DNA of 61,257 nucleotides from an uncultured Trueperaceae bacterium (GTDB lineage: Bacteria; Deinococcota; Deinococci; Deinococcales; Trueperaceae): contig CAJXNS010000006.1 in the NCBI GenBank assembly GCA_913057165.1, positions 1-61,257 of the forward strand, written 5' to 3'. Positions 18,965-20,670 of this stretch are shown one piece after another. The position numbers and the translations under genes were made by a program. The notes below the pieces were generated by a model that was not told where the DNA came from, searched no databases, and saw only the letters and a list, made by a program, of their open reading frames with translations. The first letter of the stretch is position 1. Each line of letters opens with the position of its first letter.

Positions 18965-19516
18965 ATGCGTCAACTCTCCGCCCTGCTGCTCACGTGTGCC
19001 GTGCTGACGGCCCTGGTGATCCCCCAGCCTGCGTGGGCTCAGTCGGACCTCACCGCGCCGGCTGTGGCCAACGACTTGGTGCTGCCGTTCAATGTGGCGA
19101 TCGGCCGGGATCAGCAGCCACGGTTGGTCTTGGGTGTCAACTCGTTCCTGCCGTCGCAGTTGGCCCGCTTTCTCGCCGGCCTCGACACGTTCCTCGAGCG
19201 TGCCGGACGGGAGACCATCCAACGTCAAGTGGTGTGGCAGGTCAACGGCGAGCGTGGCTACATCAGCGTTTCCACCACGCCCTTTGATAGCGGCCCGGCG
19301 TTTTTGTTGACCCTCCGCGGGGAAGAAGTCCGGGGTTATCAAGACGAAGCAGCGCTGCTTGTGTCGATGACCCGGCTGGCATCGCGGGTATTGACCGCCA
19401 TTGAAGTCGTGGGCGTCACACCCACGTCGCCCGTCACCCCAGAGGGCAGCGAAGCGCCAGAAAACACCGATGCCAACGGCGTTTCTACAAACGAGACGTT
19501 AGACTCCGCCCCATGA
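18965..19516 (+). CDS. Secreted protein of unknown function
   Basis: A 183-residue protein with a clear signal peptide (MRQLSALLLT to about WAQ at residue 26). The mature part has alternating strands and helices, including a stretch near residues 90-115 that reads VVWQVNGERGYISVS, and a low-complexity Thr/Glu/Asn tail. I recognise no domain. A TATGCT box ends 9 nt before the ATG and there is no Shine-Dalgarno, so the transcript probably begins at or next to the start codon. It overlaps the CinA-like fusion gene by 4 nt, so the two are co-translated, although one is exported and the other cytoplasmic. Confidence 0.75.
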   Translation: MRQLSALLLTCAVLTALVIPQPAWAQSDLTAPAVANDLVLPFNVAIGRDQQPRLVLGVNSFLPSQLARFLAGLDTFLERAGRETIQRQVVWQVNGERGYISVSTTPFDSGPAFLLTLRGEEVRGYQDEAALLVSMTRLASRVLTAIEVVGVTPTSPVTPEGSEAPENTDANGVSTNETLDSAP

Positions 19517-20670
19517 GCCACGGCGCCAAACCCAACGACCCGCGCGCCTTGGTTGAGCGCCTGCATGCGACACCGCACCGCCTGGTGTACGCCTTCGCGG
19601 GTGCTGGCGCGAAGGTCTTGTACTGGCTTCATGACGTGCCCGGCAGTAGCCGCACGGTGCTTGAGGCGGCCGACCGCTACCACCCGAGCAGCCTTCGTGA
19701 CGCCCTGGACGGCGCAGCGGACGGTTCGGCAAGCGGCGGCGTGGCTGGCGCGCTGGCGGCCGTGTCGCATCGCCGGGCCCAACAGCTCACAGTGGGGGAC
19801 GACGAAGCGACCCCAACCTTTGGTGTGGGGGTGGCGGCGGCGCTGACGACCGACCGGCAGCGCCGCGGTGAGGACCGGGCGCATATCGCGTCAAGGGATG
19901 TCCTTGGGACGTCGGGTTTGACGTTGCGTTTTGAGAAGGGTGCCTGGTCGAGACACGACCAGGAGACGCTGGTCAGCCGCTGGGCGCTGACCGAGATGGC
20001 ACGCTCGTCAGGGTTGATGGGCCCGTTCCAGCCGGCCACGCAAGCGGGGGTGGTGGTCGAGCCGTGGTTCACCCCAAGCGAGGTGTACCGGACGTTTTTA
20101 GACGACCCGCAAGCGCTGCTGGTGTTGAACACCACCGGCCATGTTGCCGAAGCACGCGAGCCGCAAGAGACGACGGCATGGGTGTCGGGTAGTTTTCATC
20201 CCATGCACGAAGGCCACCGGCTGTTGGCTGCACGCGCAGAAGCGCATTTGGGCCGCAAGGTGGGCTACGAGCTAGCCCTCAAAAACGCCGAGAAGGCCGA
20301 GACAGACGCCCTTGAGGGCCGCCGGCGGGCACAGCAAGCGTGGGGTGACCGGCCGGTGGCCCTGAGCCACGCGGCGTTGTTTCACGTCAAGGCCGAACGG
20401 TTTCCAGGCGCGGTGTTCGTGGTCGGCGTCGATACGGCACGGCGGGTGCTTGACCCCTCGTTCTACGGTGGTGAGGATGCCATGGCCTCGTCGCTGGCGC
20501 GTATTCAAGCGCTGGGTTGCCGCTTTTTGGTGGCCGGTCGCTACGCCGAAGGGTCGTTTCGAACGCTGGCCGATCTGGCGGTTCCTGAGGTTTGGTCGCC
20601 GCTGTTTGAGGCCCTTCCGGATTTCCGAAAAGACCTGTCAAGCACCGAAGTCAGGGCCGGTTGGTCGTAA
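19513..20670 (+). CDS. CinA-like (NMN deamidase-type) domain fused to a NadD-like nucleotidyltransferase
   Basis: A 385-residue two-domain protein. Residues 1 to about 165 resemble the CinA C-terminal/PncC amidase domain: a YAFAGAGAKVLYWLHDVPGSS segment, then VSHRRAQ, then FGVGVAAALTTDRQRRGEDRAHIA. Residues about 220-385 form a HIGH-superfamily nucleotidyltransferase, with GSFHPMHEGH at 226-235 and the closing LSSTEVR at 375-381, which matches the ISSTxIR motif of NMN/NaMN adenylyltransferases. PncC converts NMN to NaMN and NadD adenylates NaMN, so one protein may carry out two consecutive NAD-salvage steps. The substrates are inferred; cytidylyl transfer is an alternative. Confidence 0.72.
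   Translation: MSHGAKPNDPRALVERLHATPHRLVYAFAGAGAKVLYWLHDVPGSSRTVLEAADRYHPSSLRDALDGAADGSASGGVAGALAAVSHRRAQQLTVGDDEATPTFGVGVAAALTTDRQRRGEDRAHIASRDVLGTSGLTLRFEKGAWSRHDQETLVSRWALTEMARSSGLMGPFQPATQAGVVVEPWFTPSEVYRTFLDDPQALLVLNTTGHVAEAREPQETTAWVSGSFHPMHEGHRLLAARAEAHLGRKVGYELALKNAEKAETDALEGRRRAQQAWGDRPVALSHAALFHVKAERFPGAVFVVGVDTARRVLDPSFYGGEDAMASSLARIQALGCRFLVAGRYAEGSFRTLADLAVPEVWSPLFEALPDFRKDLSSTEVRAGWS

Follow-up and report, generated by a model that had tools for sequence, protein, structure and literature searches.

The window, a stretch of 61,257 nucleotides, comes from an uncultured Trueperaceae bacterium whose genome (G000) is a 1.78-Mb MAG of 95% completeness. The locus of interest holds two overlapping genes, the second of which encodes two domains in a single chain:

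18965 to 19516, forward strand: gene for a signal-peptide protein of 183 residues (signal peptide recognised by eye)
19513 to 20670, forward strand: fusion gene of a PncC/CinA-fold module and a predicted NMN/NaMN adenylyltransferase, 385 residues, ATG start
19534 to 20019, forward strand: N-terminal PncC/CinA-fold domain, residues 8-169 (VIA-align, hhalign and residue tallies)
19594 to 19611, forward strand: FAGAGA, residues 28-33, at the position of the PncC motif ESxTGG
20164 to 20667, forward strand: C-terminal domain, predicted NMN/NaMN adenylyltransferase, residues 218-385 (VIA-align and hhalign)
20188 to 20217, forward strand: GSFHPMHEGH, the HxGH nucleotidyltransferase motif, residues 226-235 (residue tallies)
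20638 to 20655, forward strand: SSTEVR, the C-terminal SSTxxR motif, residues 376-381 (residue tallies)

The stop codon of the upstream reading frame lies inside the ATG of the fusion gene (an ATGA overlap), which bears out the translational coupling to a secreted protein that a preliminary description of this DNA had proposed. The secreted protein had no match in Pfam or NCBIfam, and its homologues stand upstream of the fusion, among the loci searched, in the window's genus only (G000, G002, G003 and G004, which are all of the sampled fusion-bearing members of that genus). No neighbour family common to most of the 18 cellular fusion loci compared was found, and a homologue search of the window's assembly returned a single copy of the fusion.

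Domain architecture in sequence and predicted structure

Both domains are barely visible to sequence profiles and clear in the predicted structure. In Pfam, the window protein gave PF01467 at E 0.014, below the cut-off, and no CinA match, and against the NadD model TIGR00482 it scored 12.8 bits compared with a curated cut-off of 112.45. At E values of up to 1, PF01467 was recovered in all 21 homologues (best 2.2e-7) and PF02464 (CinA) in 7 of the 21 (best 0.0012), the window protein not being one of the seven. A Pfam match to Shadoo, and matches to antibody light chains on residues 27-114, were set aside as composition artefacts. With hhalign, the protein family aligned to a canonical PncC profile of Trueperaceae and other Deinococcales over 107 columns (E 2.2e-6), and to a Deinococcales NadD profile over 53 columns (E 5.7e-7).

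A first AF2 model, based on the window protein and three homologues (two from planctomycetes, one from an unclassified bacterium), reached a pLDDT of 73.9; a second, to which 14 viral homologues were added, reached 86.3 with a pTM of 0.84. In VIA-align comparisons, residues 7-169 of the second model matched PncC (2a9s_A) with Z 17.6 over 151 aligned residues (rmsd 2.6) and 4cta_A with Z 16.5, and residues 218-385 matched NadD (5vir_B) with Z 12.9 (153 aligned, rmsd 2.9) and the human NMN/NaMN adenylyltransferase (1nup_A) with Z 12.1 (156 aligned, rmsd 3.0). The folds at Z 17.6 and Z 12.9 bear out the initial view that a CinA-like and a NadD-like domain are joined in one protein.

PF01467 also spans nucleotidyltransferases for phosphopantetheine, sugar phosphates or phosphocholine-type compounds, and with sequence scores as low as these the C-terminal domain might be assigned to one of those substrates. 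We consider this extremely unlikely: NadD and NMNAT structures score above the best phosphopantetheine adenylyltransferase (Z 8.3) and CTP:phosphocholine cytidylyltransferase (Z 7.2), CoaD and RibF are encoded separately in both G000 and G020, and the exclusion of NadD and the NadV neighbourhood described below also count against it. A wide PF01467 search returned two proteins in G000, CoaD and RibF, with the fusion below threshold there, and three in the single-contig genome G020, CoaD, RibF and the fusion; among these matches there was no alternative pyridine-nucleotide adenylyltransferase in either genome.

Residues at the two active sites

In AtCinA, catalysis depends on the Ser31/Lys63 dyad, and the phosphate is bound by Gly46, Ser48, Tyr58 and Arg145, according to the available parts of PMC5384747 and, for TtCinA, of PMC4246079; the former reports that S31A, Y58A, K63A and R145A lose activity, with none detectable in S31A and K63A. 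These sites were mapped onto the window protein through alignments A1 and A3. Residues were tallied in A1 (21 rows, cellular) and A5 (18 rows), which have four rows in common and together hold 35 distinct sequences, the window's included.

The Ser/Lys pair needed for PncC activity, whose presence the preliminary description had proposed to check, is not there: by alignment mapping, Ser31 becomes Ala29 and Lys63 becomes Leu61. The lysine position is Leu, Met, Val or Ile in 21/21 rows of A1 and Leu, Ile, Trp, Phe or Thr in 18/18 rows of A5, and the catalytic Lys is absent from all 35 distinct aligned sequences. At the serine position, A1 has Ala in 18 rows, all from Trueperaceae, Thr in two and Ser in one, and A5 has Thr in 15, Ala in two and Ser in one. 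Gly46, Ser48 and Tyr58 correspond to Gly44, Ser46 and Tyr56, all retained in the window protein; Ser46 and Tyr56 are invariant in both alignments and Gly44 is found in 21/21 and 17/18 rows. Arg147 is likewise invariant in A1 and A5, but hhalign aligns column 145 (Trp in the window protein, Arg in 19/21 rows) to the conserved PncC Arg, and the counterpart of AtCinA Arg145 is placed only to within about two residues. FAGAGA falls outside the hhalign match and was therefore placed by its spacing to G[SA]S, which is that of canonical PncC, ungapped in A1 and A3.

In the C-terminal domain, the HxGH and ISSTxIR-like motifs noted earlier were recovered as GSFHPMHEGH and SSTEVR. No variation was seen in A1 or A5 at G226, P230, H232, G234, H235, K261, G305, D307, R343, S377 and R381, and S376, the first residue of SSTxxR, is present in 21/21 and 17/18 rows respectively. 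Because of these tallies in A1 and A5, the deamidase dyad is judged to be gone, with the phosphate-pocket residues and adenylyltransferase motifs retained.

Two readings of the N-terminal domain as an enzyme have to be weighed against these residues. The first, put forward in the preliminary description, is an active NMN deamidase whose product, NaMN, is adenylylated to NaAD by the C-terminal domain, so that one chain would carry out two consecutive reactions of the pyridine nucleotide cycle. The PncC fold and the conserved phosphate-site residues are in its favour, but with Ala and Leu at the dyad positions, no Lys in any row of A1 or A5, and the abolished activity of the matching AtCinA mutants, it appears very unlikely, and the gene content discussed below weighs further against it. 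The second is an enzyme of other chemistry, neither deamidation nor mere binding, acting on a phosphorylated substrate. Gly30, Ser46, Tyr56 and Arg147 are invariant in A1 and A5, and Thr occupies the nucleophile position in 15/18 rows of A5; in most viral homologues, and in L022 and L023, this Thr may be catalytic. That position is Ala in 18 of the 21 A1 rows, all Trueperaceae, and such chemistry would therefore be lost at least in the window's family; on balance we regard it as unlikely.

NAD genes and the distribution of the fusion

Sixty-one genomes of one order were searched, 37 from Trueperaceae and 24 from outside the family. A fusion homologue, partial in some cases, was found in 30/61, made up of 30/37 Trueperaceae and 0/24 elsewhere in the order. 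NadD exceeded its cut-off in 21/61 genomes, five of them Trueperaceae (G001, G012, G015, G016 and G024). No Trueperaceae genome carries both genes (0/37), all five NadD genomes falling among the seven without the fusion (P 4.8e-5 for this placement if genomes were independent, which Trueperaceae genomes are not). G018 and G027 have neither gene; an assembly gap is possible in G027, whose sampled genus-mates carry the fusion. To judge from gene content, the fusion seems to have displaced NadD in Trueperaceae, a reading of gene absence that is weakened by MAG incompleteness. G001 is the only sampled member of the window's genus without the fusion, and its NadE, NadD and PncB genes lie together on the 3.2-kb contig 97 (L053), which may reflect a native replacement or else a misbinned contig.

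The fusion also occurs in planctomycetes and in viral contigs. Planctomycete genomes G061 and G063 carry both the fusion and NadD, and G062 carries the fusion with no NadD over the cut-off; displacement of NadD is therefore not universal. The survey of taxonomic spread that had been called for at the outset thus extends from Trueperaceae through the rest of the order to planctomycetes and viral contigs, and the statement that such fusions are not standard in bacteria stands for the order outside Trueperaceae and fails for Trueperaceae, where the fusion is the rule. In a midpoint-rooted tree, the Trueperaceae sequences cluster together (a single clade, support 1.000) within a cellular group (0.998) that is itself surrounded by viral sequences, a branching that fits transfer in either direction. 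Arabidopsis and fungi may have a relative; a literature search on At3g27610 returned unrelated material only, and one on PTHR31285 found nothing. A plasmid search gave no match.

The remaining NAD genes of Trueperaceae indicate which substrates would be available. NadC was over its cut-off in 0/37 genomes and PncB (TIGR01513) in 11/37; PF04095, which missed the PncB of G001 and G018, was discarded as a test of nicotinate salvage and TIGR01513 used instead. Among the 30 fusion genomes, NadE was found in 11, was not detectable in 18 (G000, G003, G007, G009, G020 and G030 among them) and was a fragment in one (G035). In G025 it lies in pieces on two contigs, and a second type, PRK00876, was recognised in G010 (L055, 491 bits) and assigned in other genomes by the same two-piece match pattern. 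Five fusion genomes (G014, G019, G025, G026 and G034) carry PncB and NadE with no NadD over the cut-off; in these, NaMN must therefore be adenylylated by something, for which the fusion is the best candidate. In the 18 without detectable NadE, NaAD would be a dead end, and NMN to NAD+ is the sensible route. With NaMN to be used in some genomes and an NMN route in others, dual substrate use is therefore predicted. G000 itself, at 95% completeness, yielded no NadC, PncB, NadV or PnuC that might supply NMN, a point against the adenylyltransferase reading, and no NadD or NadE either; its organism is possibly an auxotroph for a NAD precursor such as NMN or NR. NadV-size strong PF04095 matches occur in two fusion-bearing Trueperaceae, G006 and G021, the G021 protein serving as a NadV query.

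Gene content also bears on the deamidase. Within Trueperaceae, strong PF02464 matches, of at least 141 bits, were confined to four NadD-bearing genomes, and a second good PncC therefore seems to be missing from the fusion genomes. The separate CinA, read in three of the latter, has DQGTGG (G000; L056, 4250-5503, contig 73), EWATGG (G006; L115) or EAASGG (G020; L116), the PncC Ser being gone and, by eye, the Lys also; EVASGG in G018 (L114) shows the same losses. A vacant PncC role of this kind favours an active deamidase in the fusion, but 18/30 fusion genomes, the window's included, are without the detectable NadE that its pathway would call for. An NMN-deamidase function of the N-terminal domain was consequently rejected, on the lost dyad residues and the missing NadE. 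Of the proposed route from NMN through NaMN to NaAD, an adenylyltransferase role in pyridine-nucleotide metabolism is supported and the deamidation is not.

Viral homologues, proposed function and related systems

Scanning IMG/VR with alignment A1 gave 29 loci, the viral identity of whose contigs rests on IMG/VR. The two domains are fused in 17, encoded by neighbouring genes in six (the pairs L197/L198, L199/L200 and L202/L203, with CinA-like and NMNAT genes overlapping or adjacent) and reduced to the C-terminal domain in six. Split genes, and NadM/Nudix-like genes lying between the CinA-NMNAT (or C-domain) gene and NadV, are placed as follows:

L197, 9447 to 10603: split CinA-like/NMNAT genes
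L199, 9427 to 10618: split CinA-like/NMNAT genes
L202, 9448 to 10477: split CinA-like/NMNAT genes
L180, 11007 to 12116: NadM/Nudix-like gene
L185, 11034 to 12149: NadM/Nudix-like gene
L202, 10467 to 11354: NadM/Nudix-like gene

NadV lies within 10 kb of the homologue at 17/29 viral loci compared with 0/22 random viral stretches, the former being longer (12.8-21.1 kb, 573 kb in total) than the latter (4.1-13.2 kb, 185 kb in total). On whole contigs, PF04095 was found in 18/29 homologue contigs against 0/21 controls, which are again smaller (4-46 kb against 20-448 kb). The available text of PMC9503650 places NadV in 33% of jumbo phages; given this frequency and the smaller controls, it is therefore the short same-strand distances, not the count alone, that carry the argument. 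NadV was on the same strand as the homologue in 16/16 cases measured, from overlapping to 2.3 kb apart (2 bp in L176, overlapping in L181). It is about 80 kb away in L204; in all, 12/29 loci lack NadV within 10 kb of the homologue, and 11/29 lack it over the entire contig. Merging six near-duplicate pairs (L177/L178, L179/L180, L182/L183, L197/L198, L199/L200 and L202/L203) leaves 23 loci, 12 with NadV within 10 kb. The NadV assignment is supported by PRK09198 over the cut-off in L188 and L181, and by NAMPT_N matches, one above the cut-off (L181) and one short of it (L176). Queries for NadE, PncB and PnuC were negative at all 29 loci, and a homologue adjoining NadV, rather than NadE or PncB, is a further point against an active deamidase.

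In L176 and L192, NadV has a Nudix gene next to it. The NadM/Nudix-like genes of L180, L185 and L202 have a good Nudix C-terminal part and sub-cut-off NadM/Nudix matches, and a GRFQ motif with no HxGH after it, as if, on sequence grounds, the fusion took over that step. In L199 an R2K ATP-grasp gene lies between NadV and the split CinA-like/NMNAT genes. The C-domain-only homologues of L190, L191 and L195 (around 10000; 4500 in L195) are on contigs without NadV, beside ThyX-like and, in two of the three, PurE-like genes (by eye), and possibly have another role.

The homologues are carried by large viruses, probably mostly phages. Phage GenBank records gave one match (LR745208.1, 72% of the query covered), and PHROGs gave a terminase match in one of ten neighbouring proteins scanned (L188). 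Seven proteins compared with PHROGs at E values of up to 0.1 gave two weak matches (0.055 and 0.06), neither of them from the window protein or from a CinA-like half of the split loci. In a viral structure library the best match was A0A6J5RR79 of an uncultured tailed phage, over the whole length (E 2.5e-24), followed by a protein of the giant virus Terrestrivirus, at E 7.6e-6 with 8% identity, and by PncC or CinA-like proteins of a marine phage and a marseillevirus; from the modelled structure, relatives in eukaryotic viruses are conceivable.

Taken together, modelled structure, conserved motifs, NAD gene content and the viral NadV neighbourhood strongly support an adenylyltransferase role of the C-terminal domain in pyridine-nucleotide metabolism. 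We put at roughly 0.8 the probability that the protein is an NMN/NaMN adenylyltransferase joined to a dyad-less PncC module, which displaced NadD in Trueperaceae and acts downstream of NadV in viruses. The C-terminal domain would bind ATP through HxGH and SSTxxR and adenylylate a pyridine mononucleotide, in the window's organism probably by NMN + ATP to NAD+ + PPi; where relatives retain PncB and NAD synthetase, the domain would have to accept NaMN too. The N-terminal domain may still bind a pyridine mononucleotide and regulate or feed the adenylyltransferase. In large viruses, the homologue would act after NadV in a route from Nam through NMN to NAD+.

The fusion is real, and its interest lies in the displacement of NadD and in its place in viral NAD salvage. 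If the reading is true, the missing NMN/NaMN adenylyltransferase step is filled in most of Trueperaceae, in genomes without NadD; the phage NAD+-salvage repertoire, as given in the available text of PMC9503650, gains an NMNAT type beside NadM and NadR; and this is a case of an enzyme domain that became a ligand-binding partner. A bolder proposal, offered tentatively and slightly more apt to fail than to hold, would see here a third class of NMN adenylyltransferase, found in the NadV clusters of large phages and as the sole NAD-synthesis adenylyltransferase of Trueperaceae, with the former deamidase as a sensor or delivery module for pyridine mononucleotides, and with phages restoring NAD+ against NAD-depleting defence.

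Four known systems offer points of comparison. With the PncC/CinA C-terminal domain (AtCinA 2A9S, TtCinA 4CT8/4CTA), the fusion shares the fold over about 150 residues and the phosphate-site Gly/Ser and Tyr; it differs in lacking the catalytic Ser and Lys, and in being joined to an adenylyltransferase and not to a COG1058 domain. Other CinA fusions are set aside in the available part of an NMN deamidase classification (PMC3855486). NadD (TIGR00482) has the same fold, HxGH and SSTxxR, and the fusion stands at the NadD step in the five genomes with PncB and NadE; unlike NadD, it scores far below the family cut-off, has an extra N-terminal module and probably also uses NMN. The human cytosolic NMN/NaMN adenylyltransferase (1NUP) is tied with NadD in fold (Z 12.1 against 12.9), and its dual use of NMN and NaMN is what the fusion genome contexts call for, but the matched structure is single-domain, without a PncC module, at 14% identity. 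In the available texts, a cyanobacterial NMNAT-C paper (PMC13036487) names CinA once, as a separate enzyme, and a yeast Pof1 paper (PMC13191266) does not mention it.

The fourth system is phage nicotinamide salvage by NadV with NadM or NadR, related to NARP2 (as cited in the available part of PMC11984713). Section 3.6 of Iyer et al. (PMC9503650) names NadM and NadR only as phage adenylyltransferases, a search for the word CinA in the main text came back empty, and a literature search combining CinA, NadV and phage found nothing. The window's gene has no NadV beside it, and G000 no PF04095 match. The viral homologues resemble the salvage systems of PMC9503650, as far as its available text describes them, in the nearby NadV and in the predicted step from NMN to NAD+; the difference is that the fusion-bearing viruses would take this step with an adenylyltransferase of another type.
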